A stretch of DNA of 64,000 nucleotides from Myxococcales bacterium (GTDB lineage Bacteria; Myxococcota_A; Polyangia; Polyangiales; Houyiibacteriaceae): assembly GCA_019637115.1 (NCBI GenBank), contig JAHBWH010000013.1, positions 1 to 64,000 of the forward strand. The letters are read 5' to 3'. Position 1 is the stretch's first letter. Every line of letters begins with the position of its first letter. Shown piece after piece: positions 5,277 through 49,486 of the stretch. A model generated the notes under the pieces. It was not told the DNA's origin. It made no database searches and worked only from the letters and a program-made list of their open reading frames with translations. The translations under genes were made by a program, and so were the position numbers.

Positions 5277-5435
5277 TCGCCGATGTGAACTCTCTTTCGA
5301 GCCCGTCGTCAACGCGCGTTGTGAGCGCTTCAGTGTACGCATGTTGCGCATCCGAGCTCCGGTCCTGTGGGAGCCGCCATCGCGTGGCGGACGTACACGG
5401 CGACGCGCGGCGACTTCTGGTACCCTCCCGCGCCG

Positions 5436-7193: not shown

Positions 7194-8266
7194 TGTCGGG
7201 GCAGAAGCCGGGCGGGAAGATCCGCGTGCTCGTGGTCGACGACAGCGCGTTCATGCGCATCGCGGTCAAGCGCACGCTCGAGGGCGATCCGGGCATCGAG
7301 GTCATCGGTCAAGGCAAGGACGGGGCCGAGGCGGTGCAGCTCGTCGAGGCGCTGAAGCCCGACGTCGTCACGATGGACTTCAACATGCCGCGGATGAACG
7401 GCGTGGAGGCGCTCCGGGCGATCTTCGCGAAGCGCCCGGTGCCCGTGATCATGCTCTCGGCGCACACGCAGGAGGGCGCGCAGGAGACGCTCGACGCGCT
7501 CGCGGCGGGCGCGGTGGACTTCGTGCCGAAGCCCGACGGGGAGGTCTCGACGGATCTGAGCGGCGTGCGCGAGGAGCTGCTCCGCAAGGTGAAGGCCGCG
7601 GCGCGGAGCAAGCCGACCGCCGCGCCGGCGCCGACGGGCGCCGTGCGCGTGCGCGCGGTCGCGCCGAAGTCGATCGCGCCGCGGGCCCGACCGACGGGGC
7701 GAGGGAGCCCGCCGGTCGTCGTGATCGCGATCTCCACGGGCGGCCCCTCGGCGCTCGAGCGGGTGATCCCCCGGCTGCCCGCGAGCTTCGGCGCGGGGGT
7801 GATCGTCGTGCAGCACATGCCCAAGGCGTTCACCGGCGCGCTCGCCGCGCGCCTCGACGGGGTCAGCGCGCTGGAGGTGCGGGAGGCCGTCGACGGCGAC
7901 GTCGCGGAGCCGGGGCTGGTGCTCGTCGCGCCCGGCGACCGGCACCTCACGCTCGACGCGATGGGCCGCGTGCGCTTGACGGACTCGGCGCCGGTGAATG
8001 GCTGTCGCCCCGCGGCGGACGTGACGCTGCAGTCGGCGGCGCGGGTGCTCGGGCCGCGGGTCGCGGTCATGGTGATGACCGGCATGGGCCGCGATGGCGC
8101 CCTCGGCTCGCAGGCGGTGAAGGCGGCGGGCGGTCGTGTCTTCGCGCAGGACGAGGCGACCAGCGTGGTCTACGGGATGCCGAAGGCGGTGGTGGAGCGT
8201 GGGCTCACGGAGGCGATCTTCCCGCTCGAGGGCATCGCGCCCGCGCTCGTCGAGCGCTTCGGGTGA
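7193..8266 (+). CDS. cheB: CheB protein-glutamate methylesterase / deamidase
   Basis: 357 aa. A receiver domain (1-120, phospho-acceptor D62 in T-M-D-F-N-M-P) is joined by an Ala/Pro linker to the CheB catalytic domain. The catalytic triad is visible: S181 in I-S-T-G-G, H208 in V-V-Q-H-M-P and D301 in G-M-G-R-D-G. It removes methyl groups from, and deamidates, chemoreceptor glutamates. The start overlaps the stop of the cyclase gene, implying coupled translation. No cheR, cheA or receptor genes follow, so this is an orphan chemosensory pair or the tail of a dispersed cluster. Its 3' end, including the stop codon, is duplicated immediately downstream. Confidence 0.97.
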   Translation: MSGQKPGGKIRVLVVDDSAFMRIAVKRTLEGDPGIEVIGQGKDGAEAVQLVEALKPDVVTMDFNMPRMNGVEALRAIFAKRPVPVIMLSAHTQEGAQETLDALAAGAVDFVPKPDGEVSTDLSGVREELLRKVKAAARSKPTAAPAPTGAVRVRAVAPKSIAPRARPTGRGSPPVVVIAISTGGPSALERVIPRLPASFGAGVIVVQHMPKAFTGALAARLDGVSALEVREAVDGDVAEPGLVLVAPGDRHLTLDAMGRVRLTDSAPVNGCRPAADVTLQSAARVLGPRVAVMVMTGMGRDGALGSQAVKAAGGRVFAQDEATSVVYGMPKAVVERGLTEAIFPLEGIAPALVERFG

Positions 8267-8393
8267 GGGGTTGGGGATCGGCCGCGCCCGCTTCGCACCC
8301 CGGGGGGGCGGTCGTCCCGCTAGAGGGCGTCGCGCCCGTGGCTCGTCGGGCGCTTCGGGTGATGGGGTGGGGCTCGACCTCGCGCGCTTCCGC
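8217..8393 (+). repeat. Direct duplication of the cheB 3' end including its stop
   Basis: The last 50 bases of cheB plus about 32 bases of trailer (8217-8298) recur at 8312-8393 with a 95-base period, at roughly 80-85% identity. Both copies contain the in-frame TCGGGTGA terminus. The second copy is not translated as part of cheB and occupies the gap before the next gene. Confidence 0.8.
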
Positions 8394-8410
8394 GATAGCC
8401 TCCGCCGACC

Positions 8411-11359
8411 GTGACGGCCTCGGCCTCGCGCGCCCCGAGCGGTGGGGCGCTCGCCTTCTTCGTGCTCGTGCTGCTCCTGACGGCGCTCGAGCTCGTCGCG
8501 CGCTATCTGCCGAACACCTGGATCAACCGAGACGGGCGCTTCTACACCAACGTGAACGTCACGCTCACGGAGTCGCTCTCGTTCGACCAGGGGGAGTTCT
8601 GCGCGAGCTGGTACGACGGGCAGCAGGGGTGGAATCGTCAGCTCGACGCGGGGTGGAGCAACGTCGCCGTCGGGCGCGACGACCGCCGCTTGCCGAAGCA
8701 CCCGGTGCTGCTGCCGTTGCTCTCGACGCCGCTCTTCTGGGCGTTCGGGCTCCACGGGAACTTGCTCTTCAACCTGCTCGCCGTCGGGTTCGCGGGGCTC
8801 TTCGCGTTCTGCTTCGCGCGGCGTTACGCGAGCGCGCCCGCCGCGGGCGCGGCGGCGCTGGCCTTCCTGCTCGGCACGGGCATCCGCGACTACGCCTACG
8901 ACTACCACGTCGACATCCTGCTCCTGGCGCTCTTCCTCGGCGGCGTGGTCGCGCTGCAGGCGCGGCGGGGCTGGGTGGCCGGCGTGCTGATCGGCGCGTG
9001 CGTGACGTTGAAGCCGACGGTGTTGGTCTGGGCGCCTTCGCTCCTCTTGATTGCGCCTTGGCGGCGGGCGATCGAGGCGGCGGTGTCGCGAGCGGTCGTG
9101 GACGCGACCGTGTCGCCGCCGCTCGTGGCGCCGCCAGCGAGCGCGTCGCCATCGCCAGGGGCGCCGTCGCTCGTGACGCCGCCAGCGAGCGCGACGTCAT
9201 CGCCGGGGGCGCCATCGCTCGTGGCGTCGCCAGCGAGCGCGACGTCATCGCCGGGGGCGCCGTCCGCGAGCACCTCTTCGTCAGGGGCGGTGGCGAGCGC
9301 CTCTGCGTCGCCCGCGCGCTCAGGCGTCGCCGTCCTCTTGCGGGCCGTGGGCGGCGGCGCGCTCGTGCTCACGGTGTACGCGCTCGCGAACTGGTACTTC
9401 TTCGGCAAGCCCTGGTGGGCGGGCTACAACCGGGTGCTCGTCGTCGTCGACGGCACGCCGCAGGTCCTCGACGTCGCGAGCACCTTCGACGTGCCCTGGG
9501 ACGCGGGCCTGCAGGCGGTGTGGAAGGGGCCCTACGGCGTCCGCGATCGGCTGACCTTCGCCCTCTTCGCGCTCCCCGGCCTGCTCGTGCTCTGGCGGCG
9601 CCCGGCCTACGTGCTCGCGACCTTGCTGGCGCTCGCCGCGGGCGTGCTCGTCTTCGCGCGATACCAATGGTACTCGGACCGCTTCCTCTGGCCGGCCTTC
9701 GCGCTGCTCCTCCCCGCCGCGGCGGCGCTCCTCGACGCGGGCGCGCGGATGGCGCGGCGGCTCGGCGCGACGCTCCGAGCGCGGGTCGCGCGGCCCTCCG
9801 CCGCGGTCGGGGCGGGGCTCGCGTGCGCGCTCGTCGTCGCCGCCACGCTGCCCGGCGGTCCACCGATCGAGCACCGGCTCCCGGACGACGCCTGGTCGCT
9901 CGGGGGCGCGGCGCTCGCGCGTGGGAGCTTCGATCTGCGCGCCGTGGCGTCGGAGGCGCGACTACACGCGCCCGACCACCCGGTGCGTCTCGGGCGCGGC
10001 GAGCTCTGGGCCGCTCGGCAGTCGCCGCTCGCCACCGTGGTGGCCGCGCCCTTCGCGGCGGGGGGGACCACCGGCCTCATCGCGCTGCACCTCGCCCTCG
10101 TCTTCATCCTCGGCTGGGCGCTCACCCGGGCGAGCGGCGTGTCGGGCCCGCTCGCGAGCGCGGCGGCGCTCGGCTTCGTGCTCTTGCCGGGGGTCGCCCA
10201 TCGCCTCGTCGCCGGGGGCCCGGCGCTGCTCGCCGCGGCCCTCGGCGTGCTCGCGTTGGCGCTCGTGCGGCCTCGGCGCTTCTTCCTCGCGGGCTTGCTC
10301 GGCGCGCTCGCGGCGGGCGTCGCGTCGGCGCCGTGGCCCTTCGCGCTCGGCGTGATCGCGCTGGCGATCCCGCGCGGCGGTCCCGCGCTGCTGCGGGCGA
10401 GCGGCGGCGTGGTGCTCGGCCTCGTCCTCGTGGCGGGCACGAACCTCGCGGTGCTCGGGGATCTCGGCGGCGATCTCTTCGTGAACGTGCCCAGTGCCAA
10501 CGGGGGGCAGCTCCCTTCGATCTCGCTCGAGGCGCTGCTCGAGCGCGCGACGCACGGGGAGGGGCGCGCCATGCTGGGGCTCGCGCTCTTCGGAGTGCTC
10601 GCGCTCTTCGCGCGACCACCCGGCACCGCCGCGGTCGGCGTCGCGATGGCGTCCGCCGCGCTGCTGCCCTCGGTCGCGCGGACGAGCGAGGGGGCGCTGC
10701 CGCTCGTCGCGCTCGCGCTCTTGGCGCTCGGGCTCCCCGCGGTCGCTGGGGCCGTCGGGCGCGCGCTCGCGCCGGTCGCGACGCTGCGGCCACGCGCCCA
10801 TGCGCTGCTCGCCCTCGCCCTCTTTGGGGCGCTCGGGGTGACGGGCGTGGTCACGCGCGTCGTCGCCGAGCAGGCGCCGCTGCGCTTCGCGACGTATCGG
10901 GGGCTGCGCGCCGCGAAGGTCTCGCTCGGCCGCACGCCCTGCGACTTCCTCAACTGGCAGAACCTCGCGTGGGAGTGCTCGACGAAGGATCGGAGCGTGC
11001 TCGGCATGGTGGGCCTCGGCGTGACGGAGCCGATCTTCGTGGGCGGCGAGCGGCGCACGCTGCTGCTCGTGCCGAACGAGGGCGCCTGGAATCGCAAGGT
11101 CCGCTGGGAGGGCGTGGAGGCGGGCCCGCGCTTCTTCCTGCGCTGGGCCGTCCCCGACCACGCGCGGGGTGGGGCGACGTTGGTCGTCACGATCGACGGA
11201 GAGGAGCGCGCGCGCGTGCCGCTGCCGCTGGAGCCCGACGGACGCCTGCGGACCGAGCGGATCGACACGGCGGCGCTCGTCGGGCGCGCGGTCGACGTGG
11301 AGCTCGAGCTGCTCGGCGTCGGCGCCGGCGTCGCGGTCGACGGCGGCTTCTACGAGTGA
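8411..11359 (+). CDS. Giant polytopic membrane protein, GT-C glycosyltransferase-like
   Basis: 982 aa from GTG 8411. Two sets of membrane helices (about residues 12-30, 100-230, 305-480, then 540-850) surround an aqueous C-terminal beta domain (about 880-982). The early acidic/aromatic loop (N-R-D-G-R-F-Y-T-N) after helix 1 and many luminal loops resemble GT-C-fold polyprenyl-sugar transferases of the mannosyltransferase type, but I see no diagnostic D-D or D-E motif I would swear to. Residues about 238-295 are a Pro/Ala/Ser linker made of three 48-bp repeats. The protein ends G-G-F-Y-E, and that coding end with its stop is repeated three more times downstream. A cell-envelope glycan role is inference. 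Confidence 0.8.
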   Translation: MTASASRAPSGGALAFFVLVLLLTALELVARYLPNTWINRDGRFYTNVNVTLTESLSFDQGEFCASWYDGQQGWNRQLDAGWSNVAVGRDDRRLPKHPVLLPLLSTPLFWAFGLHGNLLFNLLAVGFAGLFAFCFARRYASAPAAGAAALAFLLGTGIRDYAYDYHVDILLLALFLGGVVALQARRGWVAGVLIGACVTLKPTVLVWAPSLLLIAPWRRAIEAAVSRAVVDATVSPPLVAPPASASPSPGAPSLVTPPASATSSPGAPSLVASPASATSSPGAPSASTSSSGAVASASASPARSGVAVLLRAVGGGALVLTVYALANWYFFGKPWWAGYNRVLVVVDGTPQVLDVASTFDVPWDAGLQAVWKGPYGVRDRLTFALFALPGLLVLWRRPAYVLATLLALAAGVLVFARYQWYSDRFLWPAFALLLPAAAALLDAGARMARRLGATLRARVARPSAAVGAGLACALVVAATLPGGPPIEHRLPDDAWSLGGAALARGSFDLRAVASEARLHAPDHPVRLGRGELWAARQSPLATVVAAPFAAGGTTGLIALHLALVFILGWALTRASGVSGPLASAAALGFVLLPGVAHRLVAGGPALLAAALGVLALALVRPRRFFLAGLLGALAAGVASAPWPFALGVIALAIPRGGPALLRASGGVVLGLVLVAGTNLAVLGDLGGDLFVNVPSANGGQLPSISLEALLERATHGEGRAMLGLALFGVLALFARPPGTAAVGVAMASAALLPSVARTSEGALPLVALALLALGLPAVAGAVGRALAPVATLRPRAHALLALALFGALGVTGVVTRVVAEQAPLRFATYRGLRAAKVSLGRTPCDFLNWQNLAWECSTKDRSVLGMVGLGVTEPIFVGGERRTLLLVPNEGAWNRKVRWEGVEAGPRFFLRWAVPDHARGGATLVVTIDGEERARVPLPLEPDGRLRTERIDTAALVGRAVDVELELLGVGAGVAVDGGFYE
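9122..9265 (+). repeat. Three in-frame 48-bp minisatellite units
   Basis: Units start at 9122, 9170 and 9218, each encoding a 16-residue Pro/Ala/Ser segment of the type P-P-A-S-A-x-x-S-P-G-A-P-S-L-V. They are spaced in exact multiples of three, so the reading frame of the giant membrane protein is preserved. They lie in a predicted loop between membrane helices. Confidence 0.9.
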
Positions 11360-37054: not shown

Positions 37055-38575
37055 ATGCGCGTCGAGTGCCCCCACGCCGACCGGTGCGCCGGCTGCCCGG
37101 CGATTGGACTTCCGTACGCGGCGCAGCTCGAGGGCAAGGCCGCCCGCGTCGCCGAGGCCTTCGCGAGCTTCCCGGCGCTCGCCGCGCTCGAGCGCCGCCC
37201 CGTGGTCCCCGCGGAGCCCCTGGTGGGTTACCGCACGCGCGCGAAGCTGGTCGTACAGCGCGGGGCCGTGGGGCTCTACGCGCGCGGGAGCCACGAGGTC
37301 GTCGACATCCCCGAGTGCCGGGTCCTCCCGCCCTCGCTGCGAGCGGCCGCGGGGGTGGCGCGGGAGATGGCCGTGGACCCGGCGTTGCGGGGGCCGCTGA
37401 TGGCGGTCGACCTCCGCGAGGCGCTCGGGGCCGAAGGGGCGAAGGTGTTGCTGACGTTGGTGCTCGACGAGGCGCGGCGCGTCCCGAACGAGGCCATCGA
37501 GGCGTGGTGGCCGCGACTGCGAGAGGCGGCCGTCGTCACGCTCGCGATCAGCCGGCGAGCGCGGAGGTCGCCGCAGCTGCTCGGGCATGGGCTCGAGATC
37601 GTGCGGGGGCCGTCGGTCGTGGATGATTGGGTGGAGGTGCCTGGGTTCTTGGCGGGGTCTGGGTCGGGGGCGGGGTCTGGGTACGGGTCCGAGTCTGGGT
37701 CTGAGTCCGCGTCCGCGTCCGTGTTCGGGTCCGAGTCCGGGTCCGAGTCCGAGTCCGAGTCCGGGTCCGAGTCCGCGTCCGGGTCCGCCGCTTCCGGGGC
37801 TGGGTCCGCTTCGGGGTCTGAGACTGGGTTCGCTTCCGGGTCTGAGACTGGGTTCGCTTCCGGGGCCGCTTCCGGGGCCGCTTCCGGGTCTGGGACCGGG
37901 TCCGGGTCTGAGGTCGGGTCTGAGGTCGGGTCTGAGGTCGGGTCTGAGGTCGGGTTGGAGGTCGGGTTGGAGGTTGGGGGCGGATTTGCGTTTCGGGCAG
38001 GGGCAGGGGCAGGGGCAAGGGCACGGGGCGGCGTGGCGATACCCGCCGTCCCCGGCGGGTTCGTGCAGGCGCATCGCGGGCAGGCCGCGGCGATCCGGGC
38101 GCGGGTCGCGGCGGCCCTCGCTGCGGGGCGGGGGAGGCGGGGAGTGCGTGGGCTCCGCGTGGTCGACGCCTATGCGGGCTCGGGGGCGCTCGGGCTCGGG
38201 CTCGCCGCGGCGGGGGCGGACGTCGTGCTCGTCGAGAGCCACGCGCCCTCGATCACGTTGGCGCGGCAGTCTGCTTCTCGGGCGAAGCTGCGCGTCGACG
38301 CGATCGTCGGGGACGCCGCCGAGGTCCTCGGGCACCGACGTCGCACCGACGCCGTCGTCCTGAACCCGCCGCGCCGCGGCGTCGCGCCCGCCGTCCGCCA
38401 CGCGATCGCGCGGCTCGCGCCCACGCAGCTCGTCTACGTGAGCTGCGGCCGACGACGCTGGCCCGCGATCTCGTCATCTCCGGCGCCTCGGCTGCGCGGC
38501 GCGCGCCATCAGCCCTACGGCCAGATCCCGCTGAGCGAGAGGTCCGAGAGTGTCTGGTCGTGCTTTCGAGCGCGC
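37055..38575 (+). pseudogene. rlmD: RlmD/TrmA-type tRNA/rRNA (uracil-5-)-methyltransferase, frameshifted
   Basis: Starts ATG 37055. The 4Fe-4S cysteines are present (C-P-H-A-D-R-C-A-G-C-P, later I-P-E-C-R), then the methyltransferase core V-V-D-A-Y-A-G-S-G and V-L-N-P-P-R-R-G and the catalytic Y-V-S-C. Just after that motif a base is missing near 38447: T-L-A-R-D-L-V-I continues in another frame. P-Y-G-Q-I-P-L-S-E-R then reappears in the first frame, and C-L-V-V-L-S in the second again. At least three indels therefore hit the last 40 codons. Between the N-terminal part and the Rossmann domain is an insert of about 120 residues of Ser/Gly/Glu/Ala repeats. Either a young pseudogene or an active enzyme with a damaged tail. 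Confidence 0.85.
37640..37990 (+). repeat. Hexanucleotide-type repeat insert in the rlmD-like gene
   Basis: Some 350 bases of GGGTCC/GAGTCC/GCGTCC and GAGGTCGGGTCT units, in frame, encoding (G/S/E)n then (S-E-V-G)n. It ends at a G-quadruplex-prone (GGGGCA)n run (37995-38028) like that at 145-173. The equivalent position in the enzyme family has only a short linker. Confidence 0.9.
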
Positions 38576-38579
38576 CACG

Positions 38580-39180
38580 CCGCCAGTCGCGCCGCGCCGG
38601 CTTCGCCGTGCTCGACAAGCCGCCGCCTGAGACCACCACGCCACACCGGAGTCTCCGATCTGCGCTGCTCGACCGCGCCGCGCACGCTTCGAGGGGGCTT
38701 CGCGGAGGCGACCGCGGTGCATCATTTCGACGTCGGCACGAGCAGGCTCGTGCTCGTCGCGCCTGGAGCCCCCGCGCACGTGGGCGCGCTGGCCCAGGCG
38801 CTTCGCGGCGGGCACGAAGACGTACCTCGCGCTCGTGCGCGGCGTGACGCGGACCAAGGGATCATCCGCCGGCCGCTGACCATCGACGGCCAACCCGTCG
38901 ACGCGATCCTCGCTACCAGCGCGTCGACGTCGTCGCGGGCCACTCCTTTGCTGCGTGCGGCCCGAGACCGGCCGGACCCGCAGATCCGTCGCCACCTCCC
39001 ATGGGCCTCAGGCACCCATCGTCGGCGACGCGCGCCACGGGCACCGCAGCCAACCGGCACTTAGGGCGCTACGGCCTCGACCGCACGTTCCTTCACTGCA
39101 GGCGGCTCGAGCACCGAGAGCGCTGGGCAGGCAGACGCCAGCACGCCAGACCTCGGCGAGGCGCCGCTCAGGCGGCTCGA
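38580..39180 (+). pseudogene. Decayed RluA-family pseudouridine synthase
   Basis: Recognisable fragments lie in order but in alternating frames: F-A-V-L-D-K-P-P (about 38600), then H-H-F-D-V-G-T-S-R-L-V-L (38718-38755; the family catalytic motif is H-R-L-D-x-x-T-S-G). Next come K-T-Y-L-A-L-V-R-G-V (38820), R-P-L-T-I-D-G-Q-P-V-D (38872), R-Y-Q-R-V-D-V-V-A-G-H-S, E-T-G-R-T-R-Q/R-S (38960), Q-I-R-R-H-L, P-I-V-G-D-A-R-H-G-H and N-R-H-L-x-R-Y-G-L-D-R-T-F-L-H (39050-39095). At least seven frame changes occur, so it cannot make a protein. The pattern is decay by many small indels. Confidence 0.8.
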
Positions 39181-39265
39181 CCTCTCCACGCCCCTCCCGG
39201 GGATCTCCACGACCGTGCTTCGTCGGGCGACGGGCAAGGGGGAGAGAACGCGGTAGGATGCGCGC

Positions 39266-39436
39266 GTGACCGAGCCGGTCGACGATCCCGACGTGCACCA
39301 GGACGAGGAGGACCCGTGGGCGCCCGAGCCCACCGAGGTGGTCGACCCCTTCAGCCCTGGTTTCTTCTTTGCGGACCGCTTCCGCATCGAGGCGCCGCTC
39401 GGCGTGGGCGCGATGGGGGCGGTGTATCGCGCGACG
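39266..39436 (+). pseudogene. Ser/Thr kinase N-terminal stub
   Basis: Starts GTG 39266 with AGGA upstream. About 57 residues read as an acidic N-terminus followed by the first kinase strand and glycine loop (D-R-F-R-I-E-A-P-L-G-V-G-A-M-G-A-V-Y-R-A-T-D). At a GGATCC (39436-39441) the kinase sequence ends. The frame then continues into the antisense of a different gene (holB) and stops at 39526. The remaining 250 or so residues of a kinase domain are absent from the window. A rearrangement breakpoint or an assembly join lies here. Confidence 0.75.
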
Positions 39437-39615
39437 GATCCGCCCGCGGCTTCGCCGATGACGGCGGTCGCGAGCGCGAGCGCGCAGCGCTCCTTGCCGA
39501 CGCCGCCGGGGCCCTCGAAGAGGTAGGCCGAGGGCAGCCGCGACTCGCGGACGGCGCGTCGCAGGACCTCGAGGGCGAGGGGGTGGGCCCGCACGTGGTC
39601 GAAGGGATCGCCCAT
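39437..39615 (-). pseudogene. holB: DNA polymerase III delta' subunit N-terminal stub
   Basis: ATG 39613-39615, reading F-D-H-V-R-A-H-P-L-A-L-E-V-L-R-R-A-V and S-A-Y-L-F-E-G-P-G-G-V-G-K-E, the AAA+ P-loop start typical of delta' clamp-loader subunits. After about 60 residues (A-L-A-T-A-V-I-G-E-A) it runs into the antisense of the kinase stub at the same junction, so the Zn-finger and the rest of the AAA+ domain are missing. The start lies four bases past the stop of the tetR remnant, so the original order was tetR then holB in one operon. An intact essential copy must exist elsewhere if the sequence is right. Confidence 0.72.
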
Positions 39616-39619
39616 CGGC

Positions 39620-39790
39620 TCAGGCCTTCGGGCCGGGCGTGAGCATCGCGATCGCCAAGGTCTGGATCGCGTCGACGACCTGCTCGGGGCGCAGGGCCTC
39701 GGGATCGACGAAGACCTGCATCACGAGGCCGTCGAGCAAGCCCACGACGATGCGCGGGAGGACGTCGAGGGGGATGCGAGGCTCTTCGAT
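39620..39790 (-). pseudogene. TetR-family regulator C-terminal remnant
   Basis: 57 codons ending P-G-P-K-A-stop. The sequence (I-P-L-D-V-L-P-R-I-V-V-G-L-L-D-G-L-V-M-Q and D-A-I-Q-T-L-A-I-A-M-L) matches the last two helices of TetR ligand domains. Homology stops at 39790, where a TAG and unrelated DNA begin; that is the left edge of the IS91-like element. The DNA-binding half is gone. The gene would have been read leftward, towards holB. Confidence 0.65.
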
Positions 39791-41574
39791 CTAGATAACC
39801 AAACGATTCAGACCAAGTGCCAGCCCTGGGCCGACCGAGGACCGAGGACCGAGGACCGAGGAGCTCGATGCGCGCAACCCGTGGTGAGGCATGTCCGATG
39901 AAGCGGCGTGGGCGCCGGCATCCTCGAGAGCGCGTGTCCGGCGCCCGGCCGTGCGGATGGGTACGCGCGGCGCCGCCCGGAGGAGACGCTGCTGCACGCG
40001 CTGGTGCGCGAGCACTGGCCACGGTTTCTCGAGCGGGCCGAGGAGGAGGGCGGCCTGCCGCGTTTCGTGGTGCGGCTCGCGTGCCGCCAGTGCGGCCACG
40101 AGATGCTGGTGGCGTTCTCGTGCAAGCGGCGGGGCTTTTGCCCCTCGTGCGTGGGTCGGCGAATGTCGGACGTCGCAGCGCACCTGGTCGACGAGGTGCT
40201 TCCGGAGGAGCCGATACGGCAGTGGGTGTGCTCGCTGCCGTGGTCGTTGCGCTACGCGATGGCCTACGACCGCCGGCTGTGCGCGGACGTGCTCGGGGCG
40301 TTCATCCGCGCGCTGACGCGCTCGCTGCGTCGGCGCGCGAAGCGGCACCTGGGCCTACGCAGCGTGGACGAGGCGCAGGTGGGCGCGGTGACCTTCATCC
40401 AGCGGAGCGACAGCGCGCTGCGCTTGAACGTCCACTTCCACACGCTGGCGCTCGATGGCGTGTACGTGCGCGATGCGCAGGGCGCGCTTGTCTTCCACGC
40501 GCTGCCTCCGCCGAGCGGCGACGAGGTCGCAGAGTCGCCGCGTGGACCCCGCCGGGCTGCTCGTCGTGCTTTCGAGAGCGGCACGGCCGCTCATCGAAGG
40601 CCCGAGCGACCAGGGCGACACGCGCTCGTCCACGAGCAGCCGTCCTGCGTCCTGCTACGCCGCGTCGGCCGGAGACGTGCAGCTCCTCGGCGCGGCGCCC
40701 GGCGAAGACCGCCAAGCTCGTCCGCCCCGTGCGCCTCGTCCCCTCGCCGACCGAAGCGCTCGCTGAGGTCGGTGGGGTGAATGTCCACGCCAAGGTCGTG
40801 GTGGACGGCCGCGACCGAAAGCGCCTCGAGCGGCTCTGCCGCTACGTCGCCCGACCGCCGCTCAACCAAGAGCGCCTCGAGCTTCGGCGGCACGGCGATG
40901 CCACTCGCCTTCAAGGCCGCGTGGAAAGACGGCACCCACGCCGTCTTGCTCGACCCCCTCGACTTCATCGCGAGGCTCTGCGCCCTCGTCCCGCCGCCAC
41001 GGTTTCACATGCTCCGCTACCACGGCGTCTTCGCCGCGCACTCCTCCGCGCGTGCCGAAGTCGTCCTCGGCCGCGAGCCCGAGCCTCCTCCGCAGCTCCC
41101 GCTCTTCGCCCCCGCCGACCTCGCCCCGCTCGCGCCTCCCGCGCCCCAAGCATCCCGCCACCCGTGGGCCTGGCTCCTGCGCCGCGTCTTCGCCGTCGAT
41201 GTCACCACCTGCCCCGTCCCGGGATGCGGCGGACGCATGCGCCTCGTCGAGATCGCCAAAGGCCCCGACGACATCGCCCGCGTCCTCGCCAGCGAAGGAC
41301 TTCTTCGCGCCCGCGACCCCCCACGACGCTCCGCTCCTGCACCTCGTCCAGGGCAGTTGTGCCTTCTCTTCGGCTGAGCTCCCTCTGCCGCGACGCACAG
41401 CTCCGTCTTCTGGGGGCCTGATGGCGCGTCTCACGACGACTACGCGGGGGTTCCGCGGGGGCGTGCGGCTTCGCCGTGCCCTTGCGGTCGTCGCGAACCA
41501 GGCTCACGGCGCCTCGCGAGCAGCTTCTTGAGCCGAGCCCGGTTGTTTTCGGCAGTTTGGATGTCTTACGCTCC
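39791..41574 (+). mobile_element. IS91-like (HUH/Y2) insertion sequence, copy 1
   Basis: Left edge inferred from the end of tetR homology (CTAGATAACCAAACGATT follows). Right edge inferred from the point where identity with the second copy ends (TCTTACGCTCCG at 41563-41574). It contains a frameshifted transposase (39908-41377) and about 197 bases of 3' non-coding end shared with copy 2, where the rolling-circle origin (oriIS) is expected for IS91 elements. Near the left end an 8-base unit GACCGAGG is repeated four times (39834-39865). There are no inverted terminal repeats, as usual for this family. Confidence 0.8.
39908..41377 (+). pseudogene. IS91-family transposase, broken by frameshifts
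   Basis: N-terminal part (39908 to about 40530) in one frame: zinc-binding C-R-Q-C-G-H, C-K-R-R-G-F-C-P-S-C, then the HUH motif in L-N-V-H-F-H-T-L-A-L-D-G. The frame then changes near 40530 (D-P-A-G-L-L-V-V-L), 40740 (V-N-V-H-A-K-V-V-V and R-L-C-R-Y-V-A-R-P-P-L) and 40910 (K-D-G-T-H-A-V-L-L-D-P-L-D-F-I-A-R-L). The C-terminal frame runs to 41377 through P-P-P-R-F-H-M-L-R-Y-H-G-V and a Cys pair region (T-C-P-V-P-G-C-G-G-R-M-R). At least three indels make it inactive. Rolling-circle transposase family; the type call is firm. Confidence 0.88.
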
Positions 41575-41593
41575 GATCGTCTCCGCTCCTCCG

Positions 41594-42457
41594 ATGCTCC
41601 ACGTCACCCTCGTCGCGCTCGCGCTCGGTTTCGTCGCACCGTTCCTCCGCGCGTGGATCTGGGGCGCTCCGCTCGCGCTCTTCAGCACCGCGATGATCCT
41701 CCGCGCGTTCCTCGGCGAGGCGCTCGTCGCGTGCTTCGCGGGCGGGATGCTCTTGCTCGCGTTGCCCTCCCCGCTCGCGGCCGCGGTCGGTGGTGGCGTC
41801 ACGCTCGTGCTCGCCGCCCTGTCGGCGCGTCGTCACCGCCACCTGCGCGGGCTCACGCTGATCGCGTACCGCCTCGGGCAGACCGACGCGCGCGACGAAG
41901 CGCGGACCGCGCTGCTGGCGAAGCTCACGAAGCTGCGTCGTTCGGTGCCGCCGAAGGAGCACGCGGAGTACGCGCTCTTCGCCGCGCTGCCGCTGTCCGC
42001 GGTCGAGCTCTGGGCCGACGCGCGCGCGGTGCTGGAGACGGTGAAGCTCGACGCGCTCGCGCCGGACGCGCGTGCGCGCGCCCTTCAAGCGATCGCGACC
42101 CTGCGTCTGCAAGCGGGCGATCTCGAAGGCGCGACGGAGGCATTCGCGGCGATCCCGCGGCCCGCCGAGCCCGCGGTGGAGCGCTGGGTCGCGGTGGGCG
42201 AAGCGCTTCTTCTCGCGGTGCAGGGCGCGGCGGACGAAGCGCTCGCCCGATGTCCGGAAGAGAACGATGCCGATGGCGCGCTCGCGGCGACCTACGACGT
42301 CGTGCGCGCGCACGCGCACGCGAGCCGGGGCGAGGACGACGAAGCCCGTCGGGCGCTGCTGCGCGTGAAGCACGTCGCCGGCGATCCGGGGCTTCGTCGC
42401 GCGATCGGTCCCATCGGTCCCGCGAGTGACCTCGCGCGCGAGCTGCTCGGTGGGTGA
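41594..42457 (+). CDS. Membrane protein with helical-repeat C-terminus (cargo gene 1)
   Basis: 287 aa from ATG 41594; the frame stays open upstream into the IS right end, so the native N-terminus may have been cut off. Two to three membrane helices (about 5-80), then R-R-H-R-H-L-R and a TPR-like helical region (about 90-287; A-L-Q-A-I-A-T-L-R-L-Q-A-G-D-L-E-G-A). Family not recognised. An inverted repeat (CGAAAAC/GTTTTCG at 42486-42505) lies 29 bases past the stop and could end the transcript. Confidence 0.72.
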   Translation: MLHVTLVALALGFVAPFLRAWIWGAPLALFSTAMILRAFLGEALVACFAGGMLLLALPSPLAAAVGGGVTLVLAALSARRHRHLRGLTLIAYRLGQTDARDEARTALLAKLTKLRRSVPPKEHAEYALFAALPLSAVELWADARAVLETVKLDALAPDARARALQAIATLRLQAGDLEGATEAFAAIPRPAEPAVERWVAVGEALLLAVQGAADEALARCPEENDADGALAATYDVVRAHAHASRGEDDEARRALLRVKHVAGDPGLRRAIGPIGPASDLARELLGG

Positions 42458-42739
42458 CGCGGCCGACCGGCGCCAACGACATCAACGAAAACCGTATCGT
42501 TTTCGGCCACTTACGGAGTCGACAATCGCACGACGTCGACGTGATGCGCGGAACTTCGCGAACACGAGGCGAGTCGTCGAGCGCGCTGGCCCGACGCGCG
42601 GCGATGAAAAAAGATCGCCCGCCTCGTCACGCTTCGTCCGGTTCGCGCCTAGACCGGCGTGCTCGTTCCCTCGGTCGGCGTCACGTTGCCCGACCCGGTC
42701 GGTCTCCCGAGACCTGCCGGGACGTTCGAGCGCGAAGTC

Positions 42740-43321
42740 ATGACCGAGGGTCCCCTCCCGCGAGCCGAGATCGACGTGTGGATGGCTCGGCTCGCTGCGG
42801 GCGAGCGCGAGGTGTTCACGCTCGTCTTCGAGGCGCTCTGGCCGCGAGTCTTCGGGCTCTGCCGGGCCACCCTCGGGAACGACGCGGACGCCGCCGACGC
42901 CGCGCAGCAGGCGATGATGAAGCTGATGGAGCGCGCAGCGGACTACGATCCGAGCCGAGCCGCGCTGCCGTGGGCGCTCGCGATCGCGGCGTGGGAGTGC
43001 CGGAGCGCGCTGCGTCGACGCACGCGATCGCGCGAGGTCGCGTCGAGCGAGCCCGAAGAGAGCGCTTCGCACTCGCCGACCTCGGTCGACGGTGCACGCA
43101 CGCTCGAGGCGAACGATCCGGAGTCCGAGCTCGTGCGGCGCGACCTCGTACAGCGCGCGCTCGACGCGATGAACGAGCTCTCCGACGTCGACCGCGCCAC
43201 CCTCGCGGCGACCTTCTTCGACGAGCCCACCGAGGTCGTGGGCGCGACGCTGCGCAAGCGTCGCGAGCGCGCGATCGATCGCCTGCGCGCGGCGGTGCGG
43301 AGGTTGTATGGCCTCGACTGA
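42740..43321 (+). CDS. ECF-type RNA polymerase sigma factor (cargo gene 2)
   Basis: 193 aa from ATG 42740 (an in-frame ATG at 42659 gives a longer, unlikely N-terminus). Region 2 is visible as V-F-T-L-V-F-E-A-L-W-P-R-V-F-G-L-C-R then D-A-A-D-A-A-Q-Q-A-M-M-K. A linker follows, then region 4 with L-S-D-V-D-R-A-T-L-A-A-T-F-F and a recognition helix K-R-R-E-R-A-I-D-R-L-R-A-A. It overlaps the next gene by 14 bases, the usual arrangement of an ECF sigma factor with its anti-sigma. Probably controls this cargo and itself. Confidence 0.92.
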   Translation: MTEGPLPRAEIDVWMARLAAGEREVFTLVFEALWPRVFGLCRATLGNDADAADAAQQAMMKLMERAADYDPSRAALPWALAIAAWECRSALRRRTRSREVASSEPEESASHSPTSVDGARTLEANDPESELVRRDLVQRALDAMNELSDVDRATLAATFFDEPTEVVGATLRKRRERAIDRLRAAVRRLYGLD

Positions 43322-43946
43322 TCCGCGCTCGCCGTTCGGCGCCCCGAACCCGATCGAACCGCCTCGGGTCGATCCGGATCCGGCCGACCCGCGCTCGCCG
43401 GTCGCCCACGCGACGGAGCGCCGAGCGCGCCGTGCGTACGAGCTCTCGCGGATCCGTCGTGCGCTCCTCGCCGCGTCGCCCGTCCTCGCGCTCGCCGCGC
43501 TCGCCGCGCTCGTCTCGCCTTCGCCGACCCGTGTGGTGCCGTTCGCGATCCTGAGCTTCGGCGCCGCGACGTTGATGGTGTGGCAGAGCCGCTCGATGTC
43601 GCGTGCGGCGCTCGTCGGCATGCTCGCGGGCGTGGTGCCCCTCGCGCTCTCGCTCGCCGCGAACCAGTGGCACGCGTGTGGGCCGCACGGCTGCGCGTCG
43701 CATGGGTTCTCGTCGTTCTGCGCGCCCGCGTGCGCGCTCGGCGGGCTCGTGGCGGGCCTCGGCGTCGGCGTGTCCGCGCATCGGACGCGCGCGTCGGCGC
43801 CGTTCTGGATCGGCGCGAGCACCCTCGCGTGGGGCGTCGGCGCGCTCGGCTGCGCGTGTGTCGGCGCGGTCGGCGTGGCCGGGCTGGCGGTCGGTTTGTT
43901 GGTGGGCGTGATGCCCGCGTGGAGCGTGCGCGCGGCGCGCGCGTGA
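43308..43946 (+). CDS. Polytopic Cys/His-rich membrane protein, likely anti-sigma
   Basis: 212 aa. A hydrophilic N-terminus (1-50) followed by about six membrane helices (52-70, 75-92, 99-118, 143-160, 166-181, 186-206). The exposed loop at residues 121-142 has the pattern W-H-A-C-G-P-H-G-C-A-S-H then C-A-P-A-C, four Cys and three His, fit for soft-metal binding, and another C-A-C lies in a late helix. Translational overlap with the ECF gene and the six-helix layout recall membrane anti-sigma factors of the NrsF/DUF1109 kind. I cannot show direct homology. Role as a metal-sensing anti-sigma is inference. Confidence 0.75.
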   Translation: MASTDPRSPFGAPNPIEPPRVDPDPADPRSPVAHATERRARRAYELSRIRRALLAASPVLALAALAALVSPSPTRVVPFAILSFGAATLMVWQSRSMSRAALVGMLAGVVPLALSLAANQWHACGPHGCASHGFSSFCAPACALGGLVAGLGVGVSAHRTRASAPFWIGASTLAWGVGALGCACVGAVGVAGLAVGLLVGVMPAWSVRAARA

Positions 43947-43975
43947 GGGTCGAGGTCGCCTCGGGCGATCCCAAC

Positions 43976-44043
43976 GAAGACGCGAAGACGCGAAGACGCG
44001 AAGACGCGAAGACGCGAAGACGCGAAGACGCGAAGACGCGAAG
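43976..44043 (+). repeat. Eight copies of GAAGACGC
   Basis: An uninterrupted 8-base tandem array filling the gap between the membrane protein gene and the TRASH-like lipoprotein gene. It ends in the ribosome-binding GGAG (44043-44046) of the latter. The repeats lie in the leader, so copy number changes could alter translation or transcript spacing. Confidence 0.95.
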
Positions 44044-44054
44044 GAGACGAGACG

Positions 44055-44486
44055 ATGCGAATCGATCGAAGCAAGTGGATGGGCGCGCTGCTCGTGCTCG
44101 GGCTCGGATGTGCTTCGGGCGAGGCGCCGCGCGGGAACGCGACGCCGGTGGTGGAGAACACGAACGAAGCGGCCCCCGAAGCTGCCGAGGCTCCCGAAGC
44201 TCCCGAAGGGACGCTCACGCGCGTCGAGCCGAGCCTCGTCTGCATGATCAACGACCAGTTCATGGGTTCGCCGCAGATCCCCGTCGCCGTCGAGGGCCGC
44301 ACCTACTTCGGATGCTGCGCGATGTGCGAGCGCCGTCTGCGCGACGACGCGACGTCGCGCCTCGCCACCGATCCGGTGACCGGACGCCAAGTCGACAAGG
44401 CGAGCGCCGTGATCGGCCGCGCGAGCGACGGACGCGTGCACTACTTCGAGAGCGAAGACTCGATGCGTCGCTTCCCCGGCGCGTGA
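44055..44486 (+). CDS. TRASH/YHS-like metal-binding lipoprotein (cargo gene 4)
   Basis: 143 aa from ATG 44055 with GGAG 8 bases upstream. Signal and lipobox L-G-L-G-C (C19); an Ala/Glu/Pro linker (about 25-55). The folded part has L-V-C-M-I-N-D-Q then Y-F-G-C-C-A-M-C-E-R-R-L and D-P-V-T-G-R-Q-V-D-K-A, ending Y-F-E-S-E-D-S-M-R-R-F. That order (Cys, then F/Y-x-C-C-x-x-C, then D-P-V-T-G) is typical of TRASH/YHS-type domains that bind copper or other soft metals. Periplasmic, lipid-anchored. The 3' end with its stop is duplicated. Confidence 0.85.
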   Translation: MRIDRSKWMGALLVLGLGCASGEAPRGNATPVVENTNEAAPEAAEAPEAPEGTLTRVEPSLVCMINDQFMGSPQIPVAVEGRTYFGCCAMCERRLRDDATSRLATDPVTGRQVDKASAVIGRASDGRVHYFESEDSMRRFPGA

Positions 44487-44523
44487 AGCAGGGTCCGAAG
44501 CGCGCGTGAAGCAGGGTCTGAAG
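44479..44523 (+). repeat. Tandem 23-bp duplication of the lipoprotein 3' end with stop
   Basis: GCGCGTGAAGCAGGGTCCGA (44479 on) recurs at 44502 with a single C-to-T difference in the part shown. Both copies carry the TGA stop of the TRASH-like gene, and a third partial (AGCAGGGCGTGA) follows. Confidence 0.9.
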
Positions 44524-44616
44524 CAGGGCGTGACGATCGCGCGTAAGACGGCGGCTCACGGCGCGTCGACGCTCCGTACGACGGGCACGAGGCACGTCGG
44601 CAGGAGTGGAAGCCCG

Positions 44617-45016
44617 ATGAACGTTCGATGGATCGCGATGGTTTCGATGGTGCTCACGTGGGTGGGCACCGCGTGGGTCGGCACGAACGCGCACGCGGAC
44701 AACGCGTCGTTTCATGCGCGCTACGAGGCGGTACGGGTGGCGCTCGCGCGCGACGACGACGCGGCAGCGCAGCGAGCCGCGCAGGCGATGATCGCCGCCA
44801 CCTCGGGCGCGGTGCGCGCGTCCAGCGAGCGCCTCGCGAGCGCACGGGGTCTCGAGGCGCGTCGCGCGGCGTTCGCGCAGCTCACCGAACGCGCGATCGA
44901 AGCCGGCCTCGCGCGAGGCCGCACGATCTGGCGTTGCCCGATGGCGGCCGGGCGGCCGCGCTGGCTCCAGGCCTCCGGCGAGCGCGCCGGCAACCCTTAC
45001 CTCGGGCGCGCGATGC
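44617..45016 (+). pseudogene. DUF3347 periplasmic protein, C-terminus replaced by IS sequence
   Basis: ATG 44617 after AGGAG. A signal peptide (ending A-H-A) precedes a helical region, F-H-A-R-Y-E-A-V-R-V-A-L-A-R-D-D. The family's closing motif is I-W-R-C-P-M-A then W-L-Q and N-P-Y-L-G-R-A-M. DUF3347 proteins are often found with copper/silver efflux systems and carry this C-P-M-A motif. The expected last 8-10 residues (a Cys-containing L-x-C-G-E) are missing: at 45017 the frame passes straight into the C-terminal part of the IS91 transposase and ends at 45441. A fusion of about 275 aa could be made. Probably still folds, minus one conserved Cys. Confidence 0.8.
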
Positions 45017-45637
45017 ACCCCCTCGACTTCATCGCGCGGCTCTGCGCCCTCGTCCCGCCGCCACGGTTTCACATGCTCCGCTACCACGGCGTCTTCGCCG
45101 CGCACTCTTCCGCGCGCGCCGAGGTCGTCCTCGGCCGCGAGCCCGACCCTCCTCCGCAGCTCCCGCTCTTCGCCCCCGCCGACCTCGCCCCGCTCGCTCC
45201 TCCCGCGACGTCGCCCTCCCGGCATCCGTGGGCCTGGCTCTTGCGCCGCGTCTTCGCCGTCGACGTCACCACCTGTCCCGTCACGGCCTGTGGCGGACGC
45301 ATGCGCCTCGTCGAGATCGCCAAAGGTCAAGACGACATCACCCGCGTCCTCGCCAGCGAAGCGCCTCTTCGCGCCCGCGACCCCCCACGACGCTCCACTT
45401 CTGCGCCTCGTCCCGGGCAGTTGTGCCTTCTCTTCGGCTGAGCTCCCTCTGCCGCGACGCACCGCTCCGTCTTCTGGGGCCCCGATGGCGCGTCTCACGA
45501 GGACTACGCGGGGGTTCCGCGGGCGTGCGGCTTCGCCGTGCCCTTGTGGTCGTCGTGAACCAAGCTCACGGCGCCTCGCGAGCAGCTTCTCGAGCCGAGC
45601 TCGGTTGTTTTCGGCAGTTTGGATGTCTTACGCTCCG
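45017..45637 (+). mobile_element. IS91-like 3' fragment, copy 2
   Basis: 621 bases closely matching 40953-41574 of copy 1 and in the same orientation. It contains the transposase C-terminus (from D-F-I-A-R-L to G-Q-L-C-L-L-F-G-stop) and the 3' end with the putative oriIS. The 5' two thirds are absent. A copy with a constant 3' end and a variable 5' end is what one-ended IS91 transposition or recombination would leave. The two direct copies flank 41575-45016. Confidence 0.88.
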
Positions 45638-46290
45638 CCCGTCACCCCAAGCTCCACGTCCTCGTCAACAACGCGGGCCTCGTGCTCGATGCGCGTACGA
45701 CGACGGTCGAAGGCTTCGAGACGACCTTCGGCGTCAACCACCTCGGGCACTTCCTCCTCACGCAGCTGCTCCTCGACGCGCTGAAGGCGGCAGCGGACGA
45801 AGACGGTGAGGCGCGCGTCGTGAACGTCTCCTCGGACGCCCACCGTTGGGCGCGGCGGGGGATCGACTGGGACGACCCGCAAGCTGAGAAGAAGTATGCG
45901 TCGTTCGACGTGTACGCGAAGTCGAAGCTCGCCAACATCTACTTCACGCGCGCGCTCGCGCGCCGTCTCGAGGGGACGCGGGTGACGACCAACGCGCTCC
46001 ACCCTGGCGTCGTGGCCACGGAGTTCGCGAGCTCCGAGGACATGGGCTTGCTCACCTCGTTCGGCTTCAAGCTCGTCCGGCCCTTCTTGAAGACCCCGGC
46101 GCAGGGCGCCGCGACCACGATCCACCTCGCGAGCGCGCCCGAGCTGCGTGGCGTGACTGGCGACTATTTCGCCGACTCGAAGCCGAAGCACCCGATGCGA
46201 CTCGCCCAGGACGACACGCTCGCGGAGCGTCTGTGGGCGATTAGTGAGCAGCTCGTGGCCAGCGCGCAGCCCGCCGCGTCGGCCGCCTGA
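45638..46290 (+). pseudogene. SDR-family dehydrogenase, N-terminus removed
   Basis: Sequence begins L-H-V-L-V-N-N-A-G-L-V (the strand-4 motif) right after the IS end, so the T-G-x-x-x-G-I-G cofactor loop and about 80 residues are gone. The rest is intact: F-G-V-N-H-L-G-H-F, catalytic V-N-V-S-S-D-A-H, Y-A-K-S-K and L-H-P-G-V-V-A-T-E-F, as in retinol-dehydrogenase/WW-oxidoreductase-like SDRs. A start inside the IS end (45619) could still give a 223-aa protein, but without NAD(P) binding. Its missing 5' end faces the missing 5' end of the tetR remnant 5.8 kb away. Confidence 0.85.
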
Positions 46291-46486: not shown

Positions 46487-46511
46487 GCGGCGCGAAGCCG
46501 AACCGACACGG

Positions 46512-46859
46512 TCACACGTAGCCCATCGCGGCGGCATCGAACGCCGCGCGCCGTCGCTCCGCGTCCACGCGAACCGCGACCGAACGTCGGGGCTGCACCG
46601 CCGGCAGGACGTGCGATGGCAAGAACCATCGCGTCTCGATCACGTGCGCCTCCACGCGCAACGTGATGGAGAACAGGTCGTCCTCGCCGAGCACGGGCGA
46701 CATCCGCTCGATCGTCGCGTTCGCGCGCTCGCCGTTCACGAGCAGGTCATCGTTCGCGGTTCGCACGCGGTGGTGACGCCACACGATGAACCCGGCGAAC
46801 GCGACGACCGCGGCGACGATGAGCACGATGACCACGGGTTCGGACATGGTGTGGACCAT
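46512..46859 (-). CDS. Small membrane-anchored protein, DUF3592-like
   Basis: 115 aa from ATG 46857-46859 (an internal ATG at 46847 is also possible). One N-terminal helix (V-I-V-L-I-V-A-A-V-V-A-F-A-G-F-I), basic R-H-H-R-V-R, then a beta-rich soluble domain with G-E-R-A-N-A-T-I-E-R-M and R-S-V-A-V-R-V-D. The layout resembles DUF3592-type proteins, of unknown function. Two minus-strand genes follow one another here, but the 101-base gap suggests separate promoters. Confidence 0.65.
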   Translation of the reverse strand: MVHTMSEPVVIVLIVAAVVAFAGFIVWRHHRVRTANDDLLVNGERANATIERMSPVLGEDDLFSITLRVEAHVIETRWFLPSHVLPAVQPRRSVAVRVDAERRRAAFDAAAMGYV

Positions 46860-46960
46860 GACGGTCACCCGTCGCCATGGACGGCGACAACACAAATCGG
46901 CTCGTGACCGCCTCCCCACCCACCCGAGGCTGGCTTCGACGCGAACCGCGCCGAGCACAT

Positions 46961-47668
46961 CTAGTGCCTGCCCGTCCCGCGCACCCCCACGGACACCGAC
47001 TGCGAGGGGCGCGCGAACGGGCGCACCCGCGCCGCGCGCGCGGCCTCACGCAGGCAACGCCCCTCGGTGGTCCGCTCGATCGCGGAGGGCAGCCGCACTC
47101 GACGGACGACGCCGCTCTTTGCGAACGTGATCGAGACGGCGACGTTGGTGCCAGCGGGCAAGCACGCCCGCATACGCGGCTCGACCTCGGCGAGGCCGGC
47201 GCGGAGCGCGCTCGGGCTCAGCGTGTCGGGCAGCGGGGCGGGGCGGCTGGCGTGCTGTCCGAGCCAGGCACGCCAGCGCGCGATCGAGGCGAGGCGCGCC
47301 GAGCGGTCGGCGCGAAACTCGTAGGCGCCGTTCTCGTGCCAGAGCGCGCGCGCCCTCGCGTCACCCCCGGGGTTGTCGGCGAACCCACGACCCGGGACGA
47401 AGCCGAAATGACGGCTGACCGCGCAGTCCAGGACCCGCTGCGCCCTCAAGCGCGTCATCTCGTCCGCCGCATCGAGCGAAGCGAGGATCGCGGTCGCGCC
47501 CCGTAGCCCGAGCGCGCAGAGCGCGTGGACGGCGGGCGTGTAGTCGGCGTGCAGAGGGTCGGGCGCTTCGTCCAGGCGCGCGACCCACGACGCGATCTCG
47601 GCGTCGTCCGACGGCTGGGCGGCCGCGTGCGCACACAGAAGGACGCCGAGGAGGCTCACGAGGCGCAT
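46961..47668 (-). CDS. Secreted protein with AgmX/PglI-type C-terminal domain
   Basis: 235 aa from ATG 47666-47668, which gives a signal peptide (L-L-G-V-L-L-C-A-H-A-A-A-Q). Residues 20-150 are helical with no family match. The C-terminal 80 residues (L-A-E-V-E-P-R-M-R-A-C-L-P, V-A-V-S-I-T-F-A-K-S-G, C-L-R-E-A-A-R-A-A-R-V-R-P-F) match the TonB-like domain found at the end of AgmX/PglI gliding-motility proteins and many myxobacterial exoproteins, with its conserved Cys pair. Periplasmic; function unknown. Confidence 0.82.
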   Translation of the reverse strand: MRLVSLLGVLLCAHAAAQPSDDAEIASWVARLDEAPDPLHADYTPAVHALCALGLRGATAILASLDAADEMTRLRAQRVLDCAVSRHFGFVPGRGFADNPGGDARARALWHENGAYEFRADRSARLASIARWRAWLGQHASRPAPLPDTLSPSALRAGLAEVEPRMRACLPAGTNVAVSITFAKSGVVRRVRLPSAIERTTEGRCLREAARAARVRPFARPSQSVSVGVRGTGRH

Positions 47669-48282
47669 GCCCCAGTCTACGTCGAAGCTCGGCGAGGCTT
47701 CCCGTCTCGGTTCGGAACATCGTTTCGCAGTCCGCGAAGCCTGAACGCATCGGGCGATTCGTGCGGCATCTCCCCACGTGCGACGCTCGTCACTCGGAGG
47801 TCCGCGCCGCAGTCGGGCGCGTCGCAGTGGCTCTCCCACGAAGCGGAGCGCGCCGAGCACGAGACACTCCTTGGGTGCTGCTGCGACCAACTCGGGAGGA
47901 GCGAGGCGCAACCGACCACCACGCTACGTGCCGAGCTCGATGCCATTTCCTCACCTCACGGCGCTCGACGACGTCACACATCTCGCCCAGGTGAAGCTCT
48001 ACTTCGCGGAGTAACTCAACGCGTTCGGCAAGTCGCTCACTTGCAACGCCATCACGCTGACGCGGTCGCGCTGTATGAGCGTGCGCCCGAGCGCGCGCCC
48101 GACGACTGGTACGTGCACTTCGCCTACAACCTCGACGCCCGAGGTGCGGACGCACCGCTCGTCGAGGGAGTACCGCGAGGCGTTGTGGCGCCGTCCCGAG
48201 AACGTGTGGCGCCGCCGCCGCCTCGTGGGAGGAGGAACAGATCGCGGCGAATGCCCCGCGAGTGTGCGAGGCTTCGCACGAA
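47669..48282. other. 614-base stretch without a secure gene
   Basis: Nothing recognisable. A plus-strand frame near 48060-48150 reads L-Y-E-R-A-P-E-R-A-P-D-D-W-Y-V-H-F-A-Y-N-L, which resembles a TPR-type fragment, but it is interrupted on both sides and may be the remnant of a gene. Other frames are Arg-rich. The region also has to carry the promoters of the divergent genes on either side. Confidence 0.4.
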
Positions 48283-49321: not shown

Positions 49322-49472
49322 CCCCAACCGAAAGTTCGTTCCGGGTTGCCGAGGATGATCGGCGTGGAGGTCGTTTGCCGCGCAGGCGTTGGACAGGCCG
49401 AAGCCTCTTCGAGGAGGTCGGCAAGCAAGATCCGCGCCCTTGGCGGATACCCGGAACGAACTCGGGTTGGGG
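49322..49472. repeat. 151-bp element with 24-25 bp terminal inverted repeats
   Basis: CCCCAACC..AGTTCGTTCCGGGT at 49322-49346 and its complement at 49449-49472 match over 22 positions with a 2-3 base bulge. The interior (about 102 bases) has a small CCTC-TTC-GAGG hairpin and no reading frame. It fills the gap between two convergent genes. It could be a MITE-like non-autonomous element, or a large structured transcript end. Confidence 0.75.
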
Positions 49473-49486
49473 GCACCTCTCGTGCC

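Follow-up and report, generated by a model that had tools for sequence, protein, structure and literature searches.

ISCR elements are widely blamed for the spread of resistance genes, and IS91, which belongs to the same rolling-circle group, inserts beside GTTC or CTTG at its 3′ end (oriIS). Rolling-circle transposases in many cases miss the end of the element and carry neighboring DNA along (review, PMC5714925), and deleting the termination signal of eukaryotic Helitrons raises both read-through and truncation (PMC4778049). The evidence for transduction by IS91-like elements was described in 2016 as circumstantial (PMC4778049), and according to a 2018 paper experimental proof of transposition was lacking for any ISCR element (PMC6218425). 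Here, we describe two insertion sequence (IS) copies of the ISCR/IS91 type, and the DNA that they border, in a window of 64,000 nucleotides at the start of contig C35 (JAHBWH010000013.1) of the 8.88-Mb Myxococcales draft genome G000 (GCA_019637115.1; estimated contamination 1.18%). G001 is the only genome of the same genus in the set searched, and C19, C31 (L052), C106, C168, C218, C312, and C379 (L055) are other contigs of G000.

The explanation that we favor, with a confidence barely above even, is that a dispersed family of dead ISCR/IS91-like elements joined DNA twice at this locus via a fixed 3′ (oriIS) end and that read-through carried pieces of genes along.

The two IS copies belong to a dispersed family with a fixed 3′ end

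The left copy (39850..41574, plus strand) has a complete 3′ (oriIS) end, which aligns over 12 copies, and encodes the zinc-binding Zn_Tnp_IS91 (PF14319) and Y2_Tnp (PF04986) transposase domains. Because a frameshift spreads these domains over two frames, the element is dead. The right copy is a 621-bp 3′ fragment of the same family (45017..45637, plus strand), which lies in the same orientation and is 93% identical to 40953-41575 (E about 1e-268), and the original prediction that direct IS91-like ends flank the metal-response genes was therefore correct. With a 7% difference between the two, recent derivation of the fragment from the left element was ruled out. The left element had also been described as full-length but dead, at 39791-41574; dead it is, but the element proper begins only near 39850 and lacks the canonical 5′ end of the family, CTGAGGCTGTYGGA. 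The usual 5′ terminus is replaced by ~65 bp of added DNA between a tetR fragment and the element (39785..39850, plus strand), which contains a 7-bp tandem array and occurs otherwise only at C31:1-133.

G000 holds about a dozen copies or pieces of this family. The core GGTTGNTTTCGGCAGTTYGGAWGTCYTA recurs, with few changes, in all 12 of the 3′ ends that were aligned, two of which were taken from other records in public databases. At the other side, three copies (C31a, C379, and C218) have the 14-bp terminus CTGAGGCTGTYGGA in common, while the remaining copies start at ~39909, 39950, 40445, 40953, 41183, and 41245 in window coordinates, so that the predicted combination of a fixed oriIS end with variable 5′ ends is what we observed. 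Two junctions can be compared with element-free sequence, the left one with G001 and the right one with C312. In both, the IS stops at the matching point, and the element-free sequence reads TTCCTCG where the two are joined, which with n = 2 is suggestive and no proof of target choice. The 5′ half of each target is absent beside the IS copies, so a target-site duplication could not show.

As judged from its sequence, the element falls within the rolling-circle IS91/ISCR group: the family has an invariant 3′ end (oriIS), a distinct 5′ end (terIS) in the three copies named above, and an HUH-type transposase with both domains, for which the C31a copy scored 84.0 bits with PF04986 (cut-off 20.9) and 62.3 bits with PF14319 (cut-off 26.3). 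The best NCBIfam match, ISCR clade Ia (NF052416), gave 307.5 bits against a cut-off of 925, and the IS91 equivalog NF033538 gave 85 bits against 125, so the element has kinship with both curated models but belongs to neither. Its nearest plasmid relative is ISVsa3/ISCR2, with 44% protein identity over 75% of the query. The two resemble each other in the zinc-binding and Y2_Tnp transposase and in the fixed 3′ end, whereas the window element falls far under the NCBIfam cut-off, is dead, and resides in an uncultured genome. No significant alignment was obtained between the 3′ end of ISVsa3 and that of the family, and a similarity of these ends was dropped from consideration. With IS91, the element has in common the Pfam transposase domains and the one-ended pattern; it differs in its sub-threshold NF033538 score and in its 3′ flanks, which do not show GTTC or CTTG beside oriIS and begin instead with GATC, GCCC, TACA, GGCG, GCGA, GCTT, and others.

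Two further members of the family have unusual structures. The C379 copy (positions 4817-6575) retains both ends, with its middle swapped for other DNA that includes an apparent IS3-type transposase piece, found also at 64.5 kb of C35. A pattern scan of public genomes returned only two records, JAHBXK010000064.1 (L117; see below) and the Myxococcales record SLEO01000220.1 (L116), which has a solitary IS 3′ core at 2574-2609 without the rest of the element.

Both flanks have foreign parentage

The flank to the left of the element is a mosaic of 1.28 kb of C19-like DNA, 0.34 kb of C106-like DNA, and then the ~65 bp of extra DNA. The C19-like part (38160..39443, plus strand) is a decayed duplicate of C19:24241-25536 at 92-93% identity, containing the C-terminus of an RNA methyltransferase, a pseudouridine synthase, and the start of a Ser/Thr kinase; on C19, the pseudouridine-synthase and kinase open reading frames (ORFs) are intact. 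It follows the N-terminal part of the methyltransferase gene (37055..38160, plus strand), recognized from its ORFs, and while both parts are together in G001:C289, the C-terminal part survives in the window solely as decayed DNA. The C106-like part (39441..39784, minus strand) duplicates the tetR 3′ end and the holB 5′ end from C106:14780-15123 at 97.7% identity. The tetR gene, thought earlier to have lost its 5′ half, is in fact reduced to about the last 53 of 201 codons. An intact metG-tetR-holB cluster is present on C106, and the order is the same in G001.

The junction of tetR with the element recurs. It is found on both C35 and C31, with 5′ flanks of 344 bp and 95 bp, respectively: C31 starts with the same extra DNA and tetR piece as the window and has a different left breakpoint. 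There, just before the 95 bp of tetR, 16 bp agree exactly with the start of the kinase gene (window 39267-39282), and beyond them lies a 5′-truncated EGF-like gene. The common junction and the kinase match indicate that the C35 and C31 loci descend from one mosaic. The EGF-like gene fragment itself (C31 246-1345) has a synonymous divergence (dS) of 0.185 to G001, compared with 0.65 for G000's own orthologue on C15, and is a second low-divergence segment beside this IS.

On the right, the fragment adjoins a gene for a short-chain dehydrogenase/reductase (SDR; 45638..46290, plus strand), which is 96.4% identical in nucleotides to an intact SDR gene on C312 that has a different gene neighborhood. 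The window copy lacks its first ~82 of 297 codons, less than the 5′ half originally thought missing. The two copies differ by a dS of 0.11, and a dN/dS (nonsynonymous over synonymous divergence) of 0.11 suggests that the window copy probably stayed functional over most of the period after the split and was truncated late. The rest of the C312-like flank (46505..47712) is rearranged, with 46505-46911 (94.6% identical to L047:5909-6315, minus strand) inverted relative to 46932-47712 (92.9% identical to L047:8601-9382, plus strand).

The expectation that duplicated gene pieces would accompany every IS end failed: only 4 of 14 other 300-bp IS flanks had short matches elsewhere (53-181 bp at ≥85% identity). 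In a 12-kb control region, the single match was 97 bp long at 90% identity and lay within a repeat family. These figures come from a small sample, and the background duplication in G000 was sampled rather than counted genome-wide.

The enclosed segment is the front half of a copper-resistance operon

Between the IS copies lie five genes, all on the plus strand. The first (41594..42457) encodes a membrane protein with weak TPR similarity; this intact, conserved gene, with 95.5% amino acid identity to G001:C636 and a dS of 0.286, was missed in the original prediction, which counted four. It is followed by an extracytoplasmic function (ECF) sigma factor gene (42659..43321; PF04542, 44.9 bits; TIGR02937, 53.4 bits; dS 0.153 to G001) and, overlapping it, a gene for a Cys/His-rich membrane protein with no Pfam match (43308..43946). 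These two genes are neighbors in G001 and also in the more distant L037, L038, L039, L040, and L041, and the membrane protein is possibly a regulator of the sigma factor. The last two are a TRASH-like lipoprotein gene (44055..44486; 92% amino acid identity to G001) and a DUF3347-like gene (44617..45016), which the right element truncates close to the C-terminus; both names had been given before, and both matches fall below the Pfam cut-offs (PF08394, 18.0 bits versus 27; PF11827, weak, 18.0 versus 25.5).

The window is collinear with G001:C636 from 41574 to 44584, and the similarity begins exactly at the 3′ end of the element. Where it stops, at 44584, G001 has an outer-membrane efflux (OEP) gene and a CopA-like multicopper oxidase gene, as in a chromosomal copper-resistance operon with ECF sigma factor, TRASH protein, efflux, and multicopper oxidase, whereas in the window the operon breaks off behind the TRASH gene and gives way to the DUF3347-like gene. 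C636, a contig of 6.2 kb, carries no IS copy, and none was detectable anywhere in the G001 genome. Since the G001 operon continues into the efflux and oxidase genes without any IS, the window segment is the first half of a copper-resistance operon that occurs independently of the element, rather than a cargo found only with IS ends. The original prediction would have been refuted by relatives carrying the cargo at the same site without IS ends; the IS-free operon does exist in G001, but its site cannot be equated with that of the window. C168 was examined as the site that the operon had vacated and was rejected, since it matches a single flanking gene from G001 and lacks the rest.

The genes of the segment have dS values of 0.15-0.29 to G001, compared with 0.48-0.75 for ten other orthologue pairs, and the bootstrap intervals do not overlap. 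Divergence this far under that of vertical orthologues indicates that the operon was exchanged horizontally, in one direction or the other, and the predicted arrival of the segment is borne out as such an exchange in one of the two species. The low dS supports the arrival of the segment but not its carriage by the IS. An array of 8-bp CGAAGACG repeats lies between the membrane protein and TRASH genes (window 43975-44050), and the alignment with G001 breaks there.

A second metal-related segment lies between direct IS ends

JAHBXK010000064.1 (1-3731; 3.7 kb) begins with the family 3′ end, 98% identical to the right fragment of the window, and ends inside a truncated IS copy in the same direction. 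Between them are genes for MerR, MerC, a heavy-metal-associated domain protein, and a thioredoxin-like protein, a mercury-resistance-like module. The record is labeled Phycisphaeraceae but probably belongs, as a wrongly binned contig, to this organism or one close to it, because the junction of flank and truncated element at its end is 99.5% identical over 204 bp to one on C31. It is notable that two metal-related segments lie between direct IS ends, while two other IS-bounded intervals, C31:124-3720 and 5462-9260, are not obviously metal-related.

Joining at a fixed 3′ end with read-through would account for the locus

We propose that the left copy inserted ~20 bp upstream of the horizontally exchanged copper-resistance operon, and that the right copy, already 5′-truncated, entered a second SDR locus resembling that on C312. 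The left copy lacks the family 5′ terminus, which suggests that rolling-circle copying probably overran its normal stop and took the kinase, holB, and tetR pieces along; the same fusion of element and genes would then have reached C31. Such a pattern fits what oriIS-led transposition with failed termination would leave. Directly visible are the junctions at the 3′ ends, the outside origin of both flanks, the recurrence of the tetR junction, and the low dS of the copper genes, whereas the read-through, the early termination, and the order of events are inferred. The element may also have moved the operon rather than having landed beside it. A bolder version, a bacterial counterpart of gene-fragment capture by Helitrons, in which a terminus-less ISCR-like element spread with the kinase-start and tetR/holB pieces and brought the copper operon, and possibly the mercury module, from a third lineage, seems to us rather unlikely.

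Several observations count against our proposal. The first search for IS copies used a 3′ query and is biased towards 3′ ends, and some copies have no 3′ end (C35 at 65.5 kb and C31:6143-6655). Nearly all copies seen are dead. The SDR N-terminus and the G001 operon neighbors are not on the far side of the elements, so no complete insertion with both target halves was seen, and recombination between repeats can likewise produce common junctions.

The last point leads to a different view of the IS copies, as passive repeats whose flanks were shuffled, and whose 5′ ends were made ragged, by homologous recombination, segmental duplication, and deletion. That one genome holds about a dozen copies or pieces, several of them cut at both ends, is consistent with this, as is the inverted C312-like block on the right, and the mosaic common to C35 and C31 could be a single segmental duplication. 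However, the 3′ ends of most copies fall at about one base, with 5′ ends that vary, and recombination would not predict TTCCTCG at both element-free junction sites; we find this view doubtful. Less probable still is an artefact of assembly or binning, by which the operon, or contigs such as C31, would derive from a third species closer to G001 and would have been joined or binned through the IS repeats. Several contigs do break inside IS copies, JAHBXK010000064.1 looks mis-binned, and the cargo (dS 0.15-0.29) and the C31 gene fragment (0.185) are close to G001 where backbone genes are not. Yet the sequence of C35 runs uninterrupted across both IS copies, themselves 7% different, the cargo has backbone-like genes on each side (old yellow enzyme, OYE, dS 0.58; SDR, dS 0.52 to G001), and contamination is estimated at the figure given above. 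Finally, the original proposal that a single IS-cargo-IS unit replaced the center of a divergent tetR/SDR locus, although in keeping with how the two remnants, and the two IS copies, are oriented, was rejected as highly improbable, because the intact parents lie on separate contigs (C106 and C312) among other neighbors and do not rejoin into one locus, G001 keeps metG-tetR-holB rather than a tetR-SDR pair, and on C31 the same tetR fragment stands next to the element with no SDR. Remnants of genes that had never been neighbors were one of the outcomes named beforehand as refuting that prediction.

The locus can be compared with gene-fragment capture by eukaryotic Helitrons, in which read-through and truncated ends accompany a lost termination signal (PMC4778049). 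Here, the copy fused to gene fragments is one without the usual 5′ terminus. The differences are that the present case is bacterial, involves very few copies, and is known from sequence alone, and that the 5′/3′ polarity of Helitrons is defined oppositely. The natural series of two-ended, 5′-truncated, and terminus-less fused copies provides comparative evidence on the mobility of ISCR elements and on transduction by IS91-like ones, with defined ends.

Other repeats in the window

Two further repeats lie outside the IS-bounded segment. A 12-bp tandem array at 37625-37990 encodes the Gly/Ser/Glu-rich linker in the methyltransferase gene. On the other side, 49322-49476 is a dispersed repeat of ~155 bp without an Rfam match, which is present in more than 25 copies at 83-93% identity in G000, with more in G001, and is predicted to fold into one long hairpin (-93.8 kcal/mol, z -5.6).

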